64,000 nt of DNA, from NCBI GenBank assembly GCA_009837205.1, contig VXTZ01000012.1, forward strand, positions 62,001 through 126,000, in the 5' to 3' direction. Of the stretch, positions 14,156 through 20,742 are shown piece after piece. The notes beneath the pieces were generated by a model, which ran no database searches, was not told the DNA's origin, and saw nothing but the letters and a program-made list of their open reading frames with translations. Every line of letters starts with the position of its first letter. Position 1 is the stretch's first letter. The position numbers were made by a program, and so were the translations under genes. This DNA is from Candidatus Dadabacteria bacterium. Lineage in GTDB: Bacteria > Desulfobacterota_D > UBA1144 > Nemesobacterales > Nemesobacteraceae.

Positions 14156-16269
14156 TCGGCAAAAAAGCTTGCGAGGATTTTTTTCACGCCGGAACCGAAG
14201 AAATCAACCGTAGCCACCGTCTTATCTCCTTTTCCGTCAATCTTTTTAACGATCCCGGGACCAAAAGTCGGATGGGCAACTTTCTGGCCCGGTCTTAAGT
14301 TCAGGCCGACATCTTCTAGTTCGTATGTCTTTTCTTCCGAAGGCAAATCGGAATCTCGGCCAGAGAGTTTTTTCTTGCGGGATTCATAGACAACATGTTC
14401 GGGCGAGAGATCATCCAGAAAAGCCGACCTTCGGGTGTGGTAAGTCCCGCCTGAAGCAGTTCTCAAGGAAGCGTAACTTAGGTAGAGCAGCCGCTTGGCG
14501 CGGGTAACCGCGACATAGAAAAGCCTTCTCTCCTCCTCCAGACCCCCAAGGGTCTCCGCAGATCTTCTGTGCGGAAGAAGGTCCTCGTTTACCCCGACCA
14601 CGAACACCGCAGGAAACTCAAGCCCCTTGGCCGCGTGAATCGTCATGAGGGAGACCTTTTCCTCTCCGGAGTCCCCCCTATCCTCATCGGTCGCGAGCAG
14701 GACGAGGTCAAGGAAATCAGAAAGAGTGATCTCGCTCCATCCCTCGGCCGCACTCAAAAGCTCCCTTACGTTCTCAGCCCTCTGGAGGTCCTCCCCCAGA
14801 TAATCCAGGTAGGCAACACGCTCAAGAAGAGCTTTAATCACGCGTGCTACCGGCTGACTCTCCGCCGCCGAACCAAGCCCCTTTATGATTTCAAGAAAAC
14901 GTGATAGGGCACCTAGGGCCTGCGCAGGCAGGAGATCATGTTCCTGGCAGTATTCGGCCGCTTCAAAAAGAGCGAATCCGCCGGCTTGGGATGCTTCACG
15001 AAGCTTCCGAAGCGTAACTCCCCCTATCTTTCTCGGCGGGACATTCACTATTCTAAGGAAGCTGACGTCGTCCCTCGGATTCTGAACCAGCCGCAGGTAG
15101 GCAATCACATCCTTTATCTCCGCCCTCTGGTAAAACCCAACTCCCGACACTATCCTGTAGGGGATTTTGGCAGCCCTAAGTCCTTCCTCAATCACCCTCG
15201 ACTGAAAGTTGGCTCTGTAGAAAACCGCCACGTCGCTCCACTTGAAATCTTCGGTCCCGACCAGGCCCGAAATCCGCTCCGCGACAAACCGCGCCTCGTC
15301 AGCATTGTCGAGGGCTTTGAACACAAGCGCCCTTTCTCCCTCGGGATTATCGGTCCAGAGGGTTTTTTCCTTTCTGCCCAGATTTTCCTTTATTACCGAG
15401 TTCGCTATGCCGAGGATGTTAGGCGTCGAGCGATAGTTGCGCTCAAGCTTAACTACCCTTGCTCCCGGAAAGTCCTTCTCGAAGTTTAGAATATTGTTTA
15501 TGTCGGCACCCCTCCACCCATAAATCGACTGACTGTCGTCGCCCACGACGAAGAGGTTGCGATGGCGCTGCGAGAGGGTCTTTGCAAAGCAGTACTGGGA
15601 GACGTTTGTGTCCTGATACTCGTCTACTAGCACTTGAGAGAATCTGTCCTGGTAACGGACGCAAACCCCCTGGTTTTCAGAAAGAAGCCTGTTTGCAAAA
15701 AGGAGCAGGTCGTTAAACGTCATGGCGTTTCGCTTCACGAGCTCTTTTTTGTATAAATCATAAAGCTCACTAAGCCTGCGACCATAAAAATCGTCCCTGA
15801 AGGACGCCCCCTCCCTGTTCTCAGCGGCGTCAAATTCGGAGAGCACCCCCTTGGGCGAAAAAAGGCTCTCCCCGTAGTCAAGCTCTTTCAGGCAGCTTTT
15901 TAAGAGGCCAAGCTGATCGTCCTGGTCGTAGACAACGAAATCCTTCGTGTGGCCCTCAAGAAAATCCGCCTCTATTTTAAGAATCCGAAGGCAGATCGAG
16001 TGGAAGGTACCGATCCATATGCCGCTTGCCAGCTCGCCCGCCAAATCCCTCGCTCTTTTTTTCATCTCCGCCGCCGCCTTGTTGGTGAAGGTCACGGCCA
16101 GAATGTTTCCCGGAGGAACGGAAAGGTCGTTTATCAGGTAGGCGATCCGGTGGGCTATTACCCTGGTTTTTCCCGATCCCGGGCCCGCAAGCACAAGCAG
16201 CGGACCCTCTCCGTGGGTTACGGCCTCAAGCTGGGAAGGGTTAAGTCCTTTGAGGGAATTGCCTGACAT
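14152..16269 (-). CDS. UvrD/PcrA-type superfamily I DNA helicase
   Basis: A 705-residue ATP-dependent 3'-5' DNA helicase of the UvrD/Rep/PcrA group, acting in excision repair and at stalled forks. Seen in order: Q motif GLNPSQLEAV, Walker A AGPGSGKTRV, Walker B VDEYQDTN, motif III GDDSQSIYGWRGAD, motif IV LERNYRS, motif V LMTIHAAKGLEF and motif VI VAVTRAKRLLYL. The C terminus (GQKVAHPTFGPGIVKKI) is the Tudor-like domain of PcrA-type enzymes. The start is the ATG at 16269, directly before MSGNSLKGLN; a longer frame would run into the tRNA gene. It lies 21 bases downstream of tRNA-Gln on the same strand. Confidence 0.95.
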   Translation of the reverse strand: MSGNSLKGLNPSQLEAVTHGEGPLLVLAGPGSGKTRVIAHRIAYLINDLSVPPGNILAVTFTNKAAAEMKKRARDLAGELASGIWIGTFHSICLRILKIEADFLEGHTKDFVVYDQDDQLGLLKSCLKELDYGESLFSPKGVLSEFDAAENREGASFRDDFYGRRLSELYDLYKKELVKRNAMTFNDLLLFANRLLSENQGVCVRYQDRFSQVLVDEYQDTNVSQYCFAKTLSQRHRNLFVVGDDSQSIYGWRGADINNILNFEKDFPGARVVKLERNYRSTPNILGIANSVIKENLGRKEKTLWTDNPEGERALVFKALDNADEARFVAERISGLVGTEDFKWSDVAVFYRANFQSRVIEEGLRAAKIPYRIVSGVGFYQRAEIKDVIAYLRLVQNPRDDVSFLRIVNVPPRKIGGVTLRKLREASQAGGFALFEAAEYCQEHDLLPAQALGALSRFLEIIKGLGSAAESQPVARVIKALLERVAYLDYLGEDLQRAENVRELLSAAEGWSEITLSDFLDLVLLATDEDRGDSGEEKVSLMTIHAAKGLEFPAVFVVGVNEDLLPHRRSAETLGGLEEERRLFYVAVTRAKRLLYLSYASLRTASGGTYHTRRSAFLDDLSPEHVVYESRKKKLSGRDSDLPSEEKTYELEDVGLNLRPGQKVAHPTFGPGIVKKIDGKGDKTVATVDFFGSGVKKILASFFAD

Positions 16270-16290
16270 GGTAACGTGAATCGAAATTTC

Positions 16291-16364
16291 TGGCTGGGGC
16301 GGGAGGACTTGAACCCCCACTACCGGGACCAAAACCCGGTGTCCTGCCGTTAGACGACGCCCCA
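16291..16364 (-). tRNA. tRNA-Gln (anticodon UUG), CCA encoded
   Basis: The minus strand folds as a complete cloverleaf. The acceptor TGGGGCG pairs with CGCCCCA, the anticodon stem CCGGG/CCCGG encloses the loop TTTTGGT with anticodon TTG, the T arm contains GGTTCAAGTCC, and the 3' end is G-CCA encoded in the DNA. It reads glutamine codons CAA and CAG. A separate promoter is visible just upstream and uvrD follows 21 bases later. No repeat of the tRNA 3' end was found nearby that would mark an integrated element. Confidence 0.95.
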
Positions 16365-16380
16365 GTTGAAAAAGACTTCT

Positions 16381-16408
16381 ATATTACCATATCCGAAGGA
16401 CTGTTAAA
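16381..16408 (-). promoter_or_regulatory. Candidate promoter for tRNA-Gln
   Basis: Minus strand TTTAAC (16403-16408), 16-base spacer, TATA-like TAATAT (16381-16386). Initiation would fall about 10 bases before the mature tRNA 5' end, as usual for tRNA genes. Confidence 0.5.
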
Positions 16409-16523
16409 GAATAACCGCCGGAGAAACGGGAAACGCGCAATATCGGCCAGAAAAACGCAACGCGGGTCAGGCGCGGGGGCGCGGTTTACGGGGCGGGCGC
16501 AATCGGGCCGCGGACCGGTCAGT

Positions 16524-17864
16524 TCACTCGGCTGCCCGGCATCCGTGCCGGAGAAAGACAAGGAAAAAAACGGCGGTGCTTGCCAGAAGCAACCCCAACA
16601 GAGCGCCTTGAGCCGTATTCGCGGTACCGGAAAGAGCGCAGCCGCCGTCGTCTTCTTCGGATTCCCCGAGATAAAGTCCCGAACCGAAAATATAGACCGG
16701 GGCGGAAGGGTCATCCTTGTCGGGCGAAACAACTTTTGTGTAGCCGAGCTTAGGGGAACTGCCTCCAGGGCCGCCGCTTTGCTCTCCGTCGCCCACAACG
16801 GCGGGATTCTCCCAGTTGTACCGGACGAAGTCAACTTCAGGCGTCTTGGCCGCGGCAATGAGTTCGCGGATATTCTCTCCGACATCTGGATCATCCCAGA
16901 GGTTTGTCTGCTCAATGTTTCTGTTCGCCCCGTTGAAGATCACGTTGCCGTTTTCATCCATTATGTAGATGTAGGTGGAAACGTGCCTCCAGGGTCCGCC
17001 GTCAAGCCTGAAAAGCGTGCGAAGCCTCACGGCGTCAATTTCAGGGCTGGCAAGAGCCGCGGTAAAAAAGACGATGGCCTCTTCAACAAACTCCCTGAGC
17101 TCCCGCTCGTTCTCCTCATCACTCTCTTCGCCCCCTATCTCCCTAGCCTCTTTAGTGGGGTGAACGCTGTTGGGAAGGGAGCCGGCCAGCTCCTCGTAGG
17201 ATTTTTTCTGATCGACGACATCAGGTTCGTAAGCGAAACCTCCGACAAGAACAAAACCCTGTTGCTCGGGTGAGAGGGAATTGCTGAACGGAATAGCGGG
17301 AGCGGTAAAAGGAAAGGCAAAGGCTTGGGGGGGGGGATCATCTGCATTATCTCCAACATAATCTATACTTGCCCCATCTTTCCCGACGCTGAGAAATATC
17401 TGTCCTACATTAATCCCCTTACGATCTTTGAGCTGTGACCAGTCCTGATCCTCAAGTTCTCTGTTTTTAGCGTGAACGTAGACGCCTCCTCCGCTTGCGG
17501 CTGTTCCGCTTCCCCCATCTCTTCCGCTTGTAACTCCGCTGCCGTCAACTCCCTTGCCCGTAAGAAGGATCAGGTACATGCTGCCGTCATTCCAGTCTCC
17601 CTCCTTATTCCTGAATTCATTCAGTATCTCAAGAGTCTCGGAAAAGGTTTCGGCCTCCTGCAGGTGAGCGACCGCGTGCATCACGAACTCCTCAAGGGTC
17701 ACCTTCCTCTCTCTATCCACATCGGAAACCGTATTAGTCAGTTCGGTTTGTTTACCGTTCAATACGTGCGGTACGCCTTCATGGGCGGCGGCCGGAAGCG
17801 TGCGGAGGGCGCCCAGAAACCCCAGAACGCAGCACAAAAAAATCAGAAATCCTATGTTCTTCAT
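16524..17864 (-). CDS. Secreted tandem Cache-domain protein with C-terminal membrane/sorting-like tail
   Basis: A 446-residue exported protein, not recognised as a named family. Residues 1-26 are a signal peptide (hydrophobic core, cut near AAA-HE). Two divergent Cache-like sensory units follow. Residues 55-212 contain VYVHAKNRELEDQDWSQ. Residues 255-400 contain YIMDENGNVIFNGANRNIEQ, DFVRYNWENP and KLGYTKVV ... YIFGSGLYLG, the pattern of single-Cache type 2 small-molecule-binding domains. The end (405-446) has GGC, a Gly/Ala-rich hydrophobic helix and a short basic tail, like a C-terminal sorting or anchoring signal. There is no histidine kinase, methyl-accepting or cyclase domain. Start ATG has GAGGAG 6 bases upstream. 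It lies 59 bases behind an SRCR gene. Confidence 0.75.
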   Translation of the reverse strand: MKNIGFLIFLCCVLGFLGALRTLPAAAHEGVPHVLNGKQTELTNTVSDVDRERKVTLEEFVMHAVAHLQEAETFSETLEILNEFRNKEGDWNDGSMYLILLTGKGVDGSGVTSGRDGGSGTAASGGGVYVHAKNRELEDQDWSQLKDRKGINVGQIFLSVGKDGASIDYVGDNADDPPPQAFAFPFTAPAIPFSNSLSPEQQGFVLVGGFAYEPDVVDQKKSYEELAGSLPNSVHPTKEAREIGGEESDEENERELREFVEEAIVFFTAALASPEIDAVRLRTLFRLDGGPWRHVSTYIYIMDENGNVIFNGANRNIEQTNLWDDPDVGENIRELIAAAKTPEVDFVRYNWENPAVVGDGEQSGGPGGSSPKLGYTKVVSPDKDDPSAPVYIFGSGLYLGESEEDDGGCALSGTANTAQGALLGLLLASTAVFFLVFLRHGCRAAE

Positions 17865-17881
17865 CGCAACTCCTCTAAAAG

Positions 17882-17903
17882 GCCGCGAAGTTTCAGACGC
17901 GGC
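17882..17903 (-). terminator. Weak terminator or attenuator hairpin after the first SRCR gene
   Basis: On the minus strand GCCGCG and CGCGGC form a 6-bp stem with a 10-base loop, followed by CTTTTAG. It sits between the SRCR gene and the Cache gene. The short T tract suggests partial rather than full termination. Confidence 0.4.
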
Positions 17904-17923
17904 AAAAAAGAAACTTTTGGGGA

Positions 17924-19222
17924 TCAGTTGGTGCCGCCGCTTACGGTGCACTTGACGCCCGCGTACTCCCAGGATGAGCAGTCGTGCCGTCCCCGCCCCG
18001 CGTGACCACACTCAAGCAGCGTGCTTTCAGTGCCCGCGCAATCCACCTCGTCAAGCAGGAAAAGAAGCGGGGGATACCCAAGCCATATCATTTGGTCAAT
18101 CGCCTCATCGCTCCCTGCGTAACCCAGCTGGCGGCACGCGACATCGGCGTCTGTTTTGTCCCAGGAATCATCGCATACACCCTTCCATCGCTTGTCCACC
18201 CCGCTAAATATCTGCAGCAGACCCTCCCCCTCACTGGATGGAGATAGCGTACCATCGTCATTTAGGGTAGAAAAAGGTATCAACCGAAGACTTCCGTCAG
18301 GCTTGTTCGTATAGATCGGTCCCACTTCGAAGCTTTCCACCACTTCTGAGTTGCCTGCATTATCGGTGAAGCTGATTCTGACCTTGATCCAGTTTTCCTC
18401 ATCAGCTTCCTGCAAGGTATAGGTGGAGGCTGTCGCGCCCGAAATTTCCGTTTCATTCCAGACAATGTCAGACCTTATCCACTGATAGGAAAACGCGCTT
18501 GCGTCCGTAGGCTTCCCGTCCGCGTCAGTGATTTTTGAATGGTCCGCAGTCAGAAGCACTCCGGTCTTGGGCTCGGTGCCCCTGACCGCTATCTGGCCTA
18601 CGGCATCATTGTTCGCGGTTGCTGCCTCGCAGGTAACGCCGAAAGCCTCCCCGTAGGAACAGTTGTTATGCCCGCGCGGCCAATGCTTGCACCTGTCTTC
18701 ACCGAGAATCCTGTCCTCAGAACCCGAGCATTCAAGCTCGTCAAGCAGATAGTACTCCTGCGGGTCCAAGTCTCCTCCTTCTTTTTTCGGCAACGCAAGA
18801 CCTACTCTCGGCTCACCTCCGGAGAAACCCAGCTGGCGACAGGCGACTTCGGCCTCCTGTCTGCCGATCACACGGTAACTGTCTCCAGACCCCAGAGTCC
18901 CGAGTCCGTCATCGCATATGCCCTTCCATTCTTCACCGTCCCTGGCCCCGGCATCGAATATTTCAAGCCTGCCCGTAGGCGCGGTAGCCGTACTGAGATC
19001 CACCACGGATCCCGTATCCGTATCCACGAGCCTCAGATCCCCGTCGGCATATGTTTCCTGCGTTCTTACATCCGTGGGACCGCCCATGAGCAAAAGCCCC
19101 AGCGCGAACCCGGCAACCATAATCGATACGCGTTGCAGATTCATGGTTCCGGCATCTCTTTTTCCGCCAACCGCCTCCGGTTTTTTCCAAAAGCTGCTTT
19201 TCAGTGTTCCGAACCGTTTCAC
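17924..19222 (-). CDS. Secreted SRCR / Ig-like / SRCR protein, copy 1
   Basis: A 432-residue exported protein. A long basic N-region and the hydrophobic core SIMVAGFALGLLLMG form a signal sequence. SRCR domain 1 (about 60-200) has WKGICDD, EVACRQLGFSGG and a C-terminal FGVTC. A middle Ig/cadherin-like unit (about 205-305) reads ITDADGKPTDASAFSYQWIR ... VRISFTDNAGN. SRCR domain 2 (about 310-430) is close to the animal consensus: WKGVCDDSWDKTDADVACRQ, LDEVDCAGTE, HDCSSWEYAGVKC. Each SRCR unit has six cysteines, as in group A domains. The GTG start at 19222 has GGAGG 5 bases upstream. It is a tandem paralogue of the next gene. SRCR domains usually bind ligands on animal cells and are rare in bacteria; the ligand here is unknown. 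Confidence 0.88.
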   Translation of the reverse strand: MKRFGTLKSSFWKKPEAVGGKRDAGTMNLQRVSIMVAGFALGLLLMGGPTDVRTQETYADGDLRLVDTDTGSVVDLSTATAPTGRLEIFDAGARDGEEWKGICDDGLGTLGSGDSYRVIGRQEAEVACRQLGFSGGEPRVGLALPKKEGGDLDPQEYYLLDELECSGSEDRILGEDRCKHWPRGHNNCSYGEAFGVTCEAATANNDAVGQIAVRGTEPKTGVLLTADHSKITDADGKPTDASAFSYQWIRSDIVWNETEISGATASTYTLQEADEENWIKVRISFTDNAGNSEVVESFEVGPIYTNKPDGSLRLIPFSTLNDDGTLSPSSEGEGLLQIFSGVDKRWKGVCDDSWDKTDADVACRQLGYAGSDEAIDQMIWLGYPPLLFLLDEVDCAGTESTLLECGHAGRGRHDCSSWEYAGVKCTVSGGTN

Positions 19223-19277
19223 TTGAACCTCCGTTGAATCTCCGTATATACACCTGTTTCTGAGATATCGTTATTAT

Positions 19278-19307
19278 ATTCTAGTTTCGACCCGGCGTCT
19301 CTGTCAA
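19278..19307 (-). promoter_or_regulatory. sigma70-type promoter of SRCR copy 1
   Basis: Minus strand TTGACA (19302-19307), 18-base spacer, TAGAAT (19278-19283). The expected leader is about 48 bases. The spacer resembles that of copy 2 (GAGAC..CGGGT.GA in both). Confidence 0.7.
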
Positions 19308-19389
19308 GCAAAACAATGCCCGCGCAGACAGCAAATAAGCTGACCGCTTTTTGGCAAACGGAATTGTCCGGTTTCCCAACGGCGGGGAT

Positions 19390-20667
19390 TCAGTTGCCGC
19401 TGGTGGCGCATTTGACGCCTGCGTACTCCCATGAGGTACAGTCGTGCACTCCCCGTCCCGCGTGTTCACACTCAAGCAGCGTGTTTTCAGTGCCGCCGCA
19501 ATTCACCTCGTCGAGCATAAAAAGAAGCGGGGGATACCCGAACCATACTATCCCGGTAAGCGCCTCCGCACTTCCTGTGTAACCCAGCTGGCGACACGTA
19601 ACGTCGGCGTCTTTTCTGTCCCAGCTGTCATCGCACACACCCCTCCATCGCTTGGACGTATCGTCAAATATCTGGAGCAGGCCCTCAGCGGAGGATTGAG
19701 CGGCGCTGGCGCCGGGAAGGGAAACCAGTCGAAGGTTTCCGTCGGACTTGTTCGTATAGACCGGCCCCACTTCGAAGCTTTCCACAACTTCCTGGTTGCC
19801 GGCGTTATCGGTGAAACTGATTCTGACCTTGATCCATTTTTCCTCATCATCTTCCTGCAAGGTATAGGTTGGAGCGGTCGCACCCGGAATCTCCGTATCG
19901 TAAAACCAGAAAAAATCAGTCCTTATCCACTGATAGGAAAACGCGCTTGCGTCCGTGGGTTTTCCGTCCGCGTCAGTGATTCCTGAGTGATCCGCGGTCA
20001 CAGCCATCCCTGTCTTGAGTTCAGTGCTGTTGATAACTACCTGACCCGTGGCGTCGTTATTTGAGGTCACGGCGGCACATGTAACGCCGAAAGCCTCGTC
20101 ATGATAGCAGTTGTTCTGCCCGCGCGGCAGATGCCTGCACCTGTTTTCACCGAGAATCCTGTCCTCGGAACCCGAGCATCTGAGGTCGTCAAGCAGGTAA
20201 TACGCAGACGGTTTATCCTGCGCGCTTTCAGGCAACGCGAGATATGTCCTCGGCACCCCGCCGGAGAGACCCAGCTGGCGACACGCGACTTCGGCCTCCT
20301 GCCTGCCGACTATACGGAGACCGCCGGTTTCCTCTCTCCCAAGAAACCCGAGCACGTCATCGCATATGCCCTTCCACTCTCCTTTGCCGTCCCCGTCCTC
20401 ATCATCAAATATCTCAAGCCTGCCCGAGGGCTCGGCAGTCGCGTCGAGGTCCACCACGGATCCCGTATCCGTATCCACGAGCCTCAGGTCCCCGTCGGCA
20501 TATGTTCCCTGCGCACTCGCATCCGCGGGAGCACCCATAAGCAAAAGCCCCAGCGCAAATCCGGCAACCATAACCGAAATGCACCACAAATCCGCGGTTC
20601 CGGCATTCCCGGCATCCGTCTCTCGTCTTCTTACGTTCCAAAAGCTGAACTTTCCGAATCCCCTCAC
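19390..20667 (-). CDS. Secreted SRCR / Ig-like / SRCR protein, copy 2
   Basis: A 425-residue paralogue of the downstream SRCR gene with the same order: signal sequence (SVMVAGFALGLLLMG), SRCR domain 1 with EWKGICDD and EVACRQLGLSGG, an Ig-like unit with SYQWIRTD and VRISFTDNAGN, and SRCR domain 2 with RWRGVCDDSWDRKDADVTCR and HDCTSWEYAGVKC. All twelve SRCR cysteines are retained. Divergence concentrates in the loops (for example the insertion FFWFYD in the Ig-like unit), which could reflect different ligands or drift. The GTG start at 20667 has a weaker GGGG ribosome site than copy 1. Its own promoter is conserved. No transport or anchoring gene is adjacent, so it is probably periplasmic or released. 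Confidence 0.87.
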   Translation of the reverse strand: MRGFGKFSFWNVRRRETDAGNAGTADLWCISVMVAGFALGLLLMGAPADASAQGTYADGDLRLVDTDTGSVVDLDATAEPSGRLEIFDDEDGDGKGEWKGICDDVLGFLGREETGGLRIVGRQEAEVACRQLGLSGGVPRTYLALPESAQDKPSAYYLLDDLRCSGSEDRILGENRCRHLPRGQNNCYHDEAFGVTCAAVTSNNDATGQVVINSTELKTGMAVTADHSGITDADGKPTDASAFSYQWIRTDFFWFYDTEIPGATAPTYTLQEDDEEKWIKVRISFTDNAGNQEVVESFEVGPVYTNKSDGNLRLVSLPGASAAQSSAEGLLQIFDDTSKRWRGVCDDSWDRKDADVTCRQLGYTGSAEALTGIVWFGYPPLLFMLDEVNCGGTENTLLECEHAGRGVHDCTSWEYAGVKCATSGN

Positions 20668-20712: not shown

Positions 20713-20742
20713 ATTTTAGCGTCAACCCGATGTCTCTATCAA
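20713..20742 (-). promoter_or_regulatory. sigma70-type promoter of SRCR copy 2
   Basis: Minus strand TTGATA (20737-20742), 18-base spacer, TAAAAT (20713-20718), the counterpart of the copy 1 promoter with the same spacer length. Confidence 0.6.

Follow-up and report, generated by a model that had tools for sequence, protein, structure and literature searches.

Two adjacent genes for exported proteins with scavenger-receptor cysteine-rich (SRCR) domains lie on the minus strand of the window, a stretch of 64,000 nucleotides from a contig of a Candidatus Dadabacteria bacterium (VXTZ01000012.1). As the original prediction had it, the open reading frame list and the sequence place both at 17924-20667; we call them srcrA and srcrB, and they share 68% identity. 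The features of the locus are:

20713-20742, minus strand: srcrA sigma-70-like promoter, TTGATA-18-TAAAAT (promoter motif match)
19390-20667, minus strand: srcrA, encoding an exported protein of 425 aa with the order SRCR - Ig-like - SRCR, read from a GTG codon (PF00530, 112.5 bits; phmmer against PDB, E 2.3e-57)
20512-20667, minus strand: srcrA N-terminal signal peptide with basic n-region, hydrophobic core ISVMVAGFALGLLLMGA and ADASA/Q (read from sequence, length inferred)
20074-20493, minus strand: srcrA SRCR domain 1 with six Cys and an additional loop behind CDD (sequence comparison)
19756-20046, minus strand: srcrA Ig-like middle domain, bacterial in type (ZirU family match below cut-off; plasmid-borne relatives; none in Pfam or PDB)
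19405-19740, minus strand: srcrA SRCR domain 2, a group A domain with six Cys and complete cation sites (sequence and AlphaFold2 model)
19278-19307, minus strand: srcrB sigma-70-like promoter, TTGACA-18-TAGAAT (promoter motif match)
17924-19222, minus strand: srcrB, paralogue of srcrA in tandem, 432 aa, its GTG start preceded by GGAGG (PF00530)
19061-19222, minus strand: srcrB N-terminal signal peptide (read from sequence, length inferred)
18626-19042, minus strand: srcrB SRCR domain 1 (sequence comparison)
18314-18601, minus strand: srcrB Ig-like middle domain (sequence comparison)
17945-18295, minus strand: srcrB SRCR domain 2 (sequence comparison)
16524-17864, minus strand: exported single-Cache-domain protein with a C-terminal GGC...TM...basic tail, adjoining srcrB and a frequent SRCR neighbour in the genus (Pfam scan)
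16291-16364, minus strand: tRNA-Gln, which borders the SRCR insertion and is likewise found in the sister genus, where the site is empty

Both proteins start with a basic n-region followed by a hydrophobic stretch, and where srcrA has an AxA-type site (ADASA/Q), srcrB reads DVRTQ. The signal peptide is the only export feature of the window proteins; they have neither an anchor nor a secretion-system signature, and a C-terminal beta barrel was not found by Pfam. A sigma-70-like promoter is located 45-55 bp upstream of the GTG start in each copy, at the same relative position, with 11/12 and 10/12 matches to the consensus in the two window copies and up to 12/12 in relatives, three of which have a perfect TTGACA-18-TATAAT. 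Shine-Dalgarno-like GGAGG/GGGG stretches are found directly upstream of the GTG codons in the window, which, together with the similarly placed promoters, backs the assigned starts. GGAGG-type ribosome sites also precede the start of srcrB and of its counterparts in several relatives. Between close orthologues, dN/dS of the SRCR genes is 0.13-0.20, similar to ispE and uvrD, and therefore diversifying selection or an arms race is unsupported. Own promoters, ribosome sites, and purifying selection argue that the genes are maintained and probably expressed. Furthermore, the family searches through which we probed the gene content of the window genome revealed VKOR and a thioredoxin_4 (DsbA-like) protein, and therefore, disulfides should be able to form outside the cytoplasm.

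Each of the two proteins has two SRCR domains according to PF00530, with whole-protein E values of 1.3e-32 and 8.1e-32 and scores of 112.5 and 110 bits (curated Pfam cut-off, 26.1 bits). Searching the PDB with phmmer matched CD163, PIT54, CD5L, SCARA5, LOXL2, CD6, DMBT1, and MARCO, with a best E value of 2e-57 for multi-domain CD163. The motifs from which the domains had first been recognized (WKGVCDDSW, ACRQLGY, LDEVDCAGTE) are all present in srcrB, and the six cysteines per domain claimed at that time were counted by alignment in all four domains. Where group B domains read CRQLGC, the window domains read CRQLGY/F/L; with six cysteines and the fourth group B cysteine replaced, they belong to group A. 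Structure prediction agrees: the AlphaFold2 model of srcrA domain 2, calculated from an alignment with 21 other bacterial SRCR domains, has the SRCR fold (pLDDT 91.8, pTM 0.84). In a structure search with this model, the best 50 PDB matches were all animal SRCR proteins (probability 1.00, TM about 0.8), and the Ca/Mg-soaked SRCR8 of DMBT1 superposes on it with a TM of 0.81 and an rmsd of 2.5. The full-length model with 12 close homologues was poor (pLDDT 43.6), and the structural evidence is thus confined to srcrA domain 2. The window domains are genuine group A SRCR folds, and fold and E values rule out chance or misread motifs.

The unit between the SRCR domains had been described as Ig/cadherin-like. 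Of this description, the Ig-like part holds and the cadherin-like part falls. The unit has a weak, sub-threshold match to the ZirU family of Ig-like exoproteins (E 2.2e-5, 24.7 bits; cut-off 100), and cadherin repeats are confined to another kind of SRCR protein, type B of related genomes (see below). Pfam and PDB searches gave no match for the middle domain. Its relatives in tblastn searches are large secreted proteins on alphaproteobacterial plasmids, e.g., a calcium-binding protein of Salipiger abyssi, and the plasmid matches of the whole SRCR protein cover mainly this domain. Judged by these sequence relatives, the middle domain is of bacterial type, which makes the window proteins chimaeras and not copies of one animal gene. 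They resemble the animal group A proteins MARCO, SCARA1/SCARA5, and M2BP in fold (TM about 0.8), in having six cysteines without C1 and C4, and in their extracellular destination. Unlike those, they are encoded by bacterial genes, have the order SRCR - Ig-like - SRCR with a bacterial middle and a long loop after CDD in domain 1, and lack the collagen, EGF, CUB, and transmembrane parts of animal SRCR proteins.

In SRCR8 of DMBT1, cations are bound by D1019, D1020, and E1086 (site 2) and by D1020, D1058, D1059, and N1081 (site 3); the exchange D1019A or D1020A abolishes binding of hydroxyapatite, heparin, and a streptococcal surface protein, and Ca2+ is required (PMC7043408). We placed these residues by alignment with seven CD163 domains. 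The equivalents in srcrA domain 2 are D346 (D1019), D347 (D1020), E414 (E1086), D386 (D1058), E387 (D1059), and D409 (N1081), and srcrB has the same letters. In both domains of both proteins, site 2 reads D, D, E and site 3 reads D, D/E, D/N, a likeness to the acidic cation site of DMBT1/SALSA and CD163. Across eleven domain 2 sequences, the positions of D1019, D1020, D1058, and E1086 are invariant, that of N1081 is D or N, and that of D1059 is D or E but G in one clade. Family-wide, domain 1 has kept the two aspartates and D1058, with D/E/N at the D1059 position and N/D at that of N1081; the position of the site 2 glutamate, E1086, is R in domain 1 of one clade. Thus, the window proteins have kept the animal SRCR ligand surface, with putative Ca2+ binding. 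This role does not extend to every SRCR protein of the genus, since type C domains have lost most of the cation-ligand set, which type B domains retain, and one domain 1 clade lacks the site 2 glutamate. Domain 1 of srcrA also has, at window position about 20376-20408, a DxDGDG-type loop, FDDEDGDGKGEW, conserved in most of the family (FDDPDGDGTGEW), and this loop may be an extra calcium site that sets the bacterial domain 1 apart.

PF00530 was found in 13 of 58 genomes of the Dadabacteria phylum, all 13 of them in the genus of the window. It was absent from all 44 phylum genomes outside the genus and was not found in some 390 genomes of other phyla (two largely overlapping draws) or in 14 control genomes. 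Public protein databases hold scattered bacterial SRCR entries. Within the genus, 13 of 14 genomes have SRCR, every time at one site between ispE and tRNA-Gln/uvrD. The 14th member has no SRCR match, but its contig stops 201 bp past ispE, at the very point where an SRCR gene would begin, and we therefore do not count it as a real absence. Relatives with enough sequence share the gene order pal/ybgF - fxsA - ispE - SRCR - (Cache) - tRNA-Gln - uvrD - selO - dnaE, and the sister genus has ispE - tRNA-Gln - uvrD, the same site without SRCR. A fixed site in the genus and an empty one in its sister are most simply explained by a single insertion next to the tRNA gene, made in the genus ancestor. Host DNA contamination is rejected by the 131-kb contig of bacterial genes and the synteny of the locus in relatives, one of which is a single-contig chromosome of 1.59 Mb (OX638332.1). 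Cargo of a phage or plasmid is likewise rejected, as the SRCR domain is without match in phages, plasmids, and IMG/VR, and so is an anti-phage defence or phage protein (no PADLOC match, no named PHROGs match).

The domain tree sorts the bacterial domains into the groups D1, D2, B, and C, and all 22 stand apart from seven human CD163 domains (branch 99/99); the comparison is with one human protein, which cannot place the donor. The position of the bacterial domains together on one side of the tree fits a single entry. The SRCR module was probably acquired once, by the genus ancestor, and later built into three architectures, among them the tip of an autotransporter adhesin. srcrA and srcrB are sisters in the tree, and the tandem therefore stems from a recent duplication. 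The first SRCR copy of the two nearest relatives (G009 and G012), which lies about 97 bp from ispE (L005 and L006), is a decaying paralogue of which the C-terminal half is left, and the loss of the N-terminal half there indicates that the srcrA copy is dispensable. Across window positions 15801-19300, a tract that contains srcrB and the Cache gene, identity to the same two relatives (G012, L050; G009, L049) is 98-100%, against 90-97% over much of the flanks. This suggests recent recombination of the Cache-srcrB tract between species; there are other conserved blocks, and general mosaicism may account for it.

The other SRCR proteins of the genus are built differently. Type B proteins, of about 1500 aa and found in three genomes (G005, G006, and G008), start with SRCR, continue with fn3, cadherin/Ig-like repeats, and fn3 again, and end in an autotransporter barrel whose PF03797 match exceeds the cut-off. 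They are thus like type V autotransporter adhesins, with an N-terminal export region, an SRCR tip, an fn3/cadherin stalk, and the barrel that the window proteins lack. With SRCR at the N-terminus of such a stalk, the genus appears to display SRCR on its surface. Autotransporters without SRCR are found throughout the genus, including the window genome. The type B frame of G008 (L045:6418-11628) is split by one in-frame stop, possibly a pseudogene or an assembly error. Type C proteins (G011 and G013; partial in G002 and G010) have one SRCR domain and a C-terminal cysteine-rich tail. Beside the type C SRCR/Cache pair of G013 lies a transposase-like ORF (L047:9452-10126), a possible route of movement.

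The genus comprises uncultured bacteria known mainly from sponge microbiomes. Wide occurrence in free-living bacteria was not found in the genomes sampled: SRCR is restricted to a single genus of Dadabacteria, and the named members resemble MAGs from sponges. These named relatives are Candidatus Dadabacteria MAGs with bin labels (RHO1, CAR2, APA) that match Rhopaloeides, Carteriospongia, and Aplysina, sponges all sampled in a study in which Dadabacteria MAGs from sponges are reported (PMC8163846). The labels jk18x and p16x are, at a guess from their form, from the Ircinia study PMC9531527. The host link, which applies to the named relatives, rests on bin labels and known lineage biology, not on sequence. 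A eukaryote-type interaction domain in a sponge-associated lineage is reminiscent of the eukaryotic-like proteins known from symbionts of sponges (ankyrin, TPR, LRR, cadherin, fn3; PMC8163846), of which cadherin and fn3 also occur in the type B relatives. In contrast to the solenoid repeats of other such proteins, SRCR is a disulfide-bonded extracellular receptor module.

With moderate confidence, we propose that srcrA and srcrB are exported, calcium-dependent extracellular binding proteins of sponge-associated Dadabacteria. In this model, Sec export would be followed by disulfide formation, and the two SRCR heads, linked by the bacterial Ig-like spacer, would bind polyanionic glycoconjugates via bound Ca2+, by analogy with DMBT1 and MARCO. 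Candidate ligands would be the sponge mesohyl matrix or neighbouring cells. Through this binding, the symbiont would hold its position in the sponge or form aggregates there, and the SRCR protein might either leave the cell or stay at the envelope, together with its Cache-domain neighbour. This role is favoured by the SRCR fold, the unaltered residues for cation binding, the export signals, own promoters, purifying selection, the single, genus-only site, the apparent surface display of SRCR by type B relatives, the VKOR and DsbA-like proteins, and the bin labels of the named relatives. The lack of an anchor counts against it, since the window proteins could stay in the periplasm, as do the loss of most cation residues in type C, the missing site 2 glutamate of one domain 1 clade, and the dispensable srcrA copy of the two nearest relatives.

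Among the alternatives, which sequence by itself does not decide, we rank first a masking or mimicry function, although we consider it unlikely. The proteins would form a coat on the symbiont or compete with host SRCR receptors for microbial ligands, and sponge cells would fail to recognize and eat the cell. Indeed, the SRCR repertoires of sponges are very large and thought to read microbes (PMC4772301, PMC10855680), with 296 SRCR genes in Amphimedon (PMC10855680) and 2166 SRCR domains in Stylissa (PMC4772301). The bacterial domains closely resemble animal SRCRs of group A, and other eukaryotic-like proteins of sponge symbionts are reported, in work cited in PMC11000336, to alter amoebal phagocytosis. 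However, self-binding is without support, a type B head on a long stalk suits outward reach better than a coat, and the ligand residues are general to the SRCR fold and do not separate adhesion from masking. A host-independent envelope or biofilm protein, ranked next and also doubtful, would bind with its SRCR heads the polysaccharides of its own cell or of neighbours, the sponge being the mere habitat of the genus. Such a role would suit the type of the middle domain, known in large secreted proteins of marine Alphaproteobacteria, the fixed chromosomal site, and the ordinary purifying selection, but a niche-specific role is indicated by the lack of SRCR in the sampled Dadabacteria outside the genus and in some 390 other bacteria.

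Last in rank, and improbable in our view, is a sensing pair, in which the SRCR protein would capture an extracellular ligand and work together with the Cache-domain protein encoded next to it. Of the type A loci, which are those of the window kind, 8 of 13 have a Cache gene no more than about 2.5 kb away, and so do 4 of 4 type C loci, where about 1.4% per locus is expected; the genomes are related, so these are few independent cases. The pairing also recurs at different chromosomal places, and the proximity suggests joint action, no more. Against a sensing pair, 5 type A and all 3 type B loci are without a Cache gene, and the Pfam scan found no signalling domain in the Cache protein.

In sponges, SRCR receptors form an immune family that has expanded greatly and is thought to help in sorting symbionts from food. 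A tentative and rather speculative extension of the calcium-dependent binding role is receptor capture: the symbiont would have taken the microbe-recognition module of the sponge, combined it with an Ig-like spacer of bacterial type and, elsewhere, with an autotransporter stalk, and turned it, as a Ca2+-dependent adhesin or mask, towards the same host. A literature search of incomplete coverage for symbiont SRCRs gave host SRCRs only, and the symbiont genome papers checked do not name SRCR. The fold family and symbiont eukaryotic-like proteins are already known; a symbiont SRCR, the SRCR - Ig-like - SRCR order, and an SRCR-tipped autotransporter have no precedent in the literature searched. 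A whole bacterial genus with SRCR at a fixed locus and functional residues intact offers a testable molecule for how sponge symbionts stay and avoid being eaten, and as small soluble proteins, the bacterial SRCRs could be made in E. coli for structure determination and ligand screens.

The Cache neighbour belongs to a family of exported proteins with a C-terminal cysteine, a hydrophobic stretch, and a basic end. This tail matched no NCBIfam CTERM model and resembles a sorting signal. There are about 3.5 family members per genome, among them the product of 16524-17864 in the window, a second one in the same genome (L067:1574-2881), and others on L046, L047, and L065.
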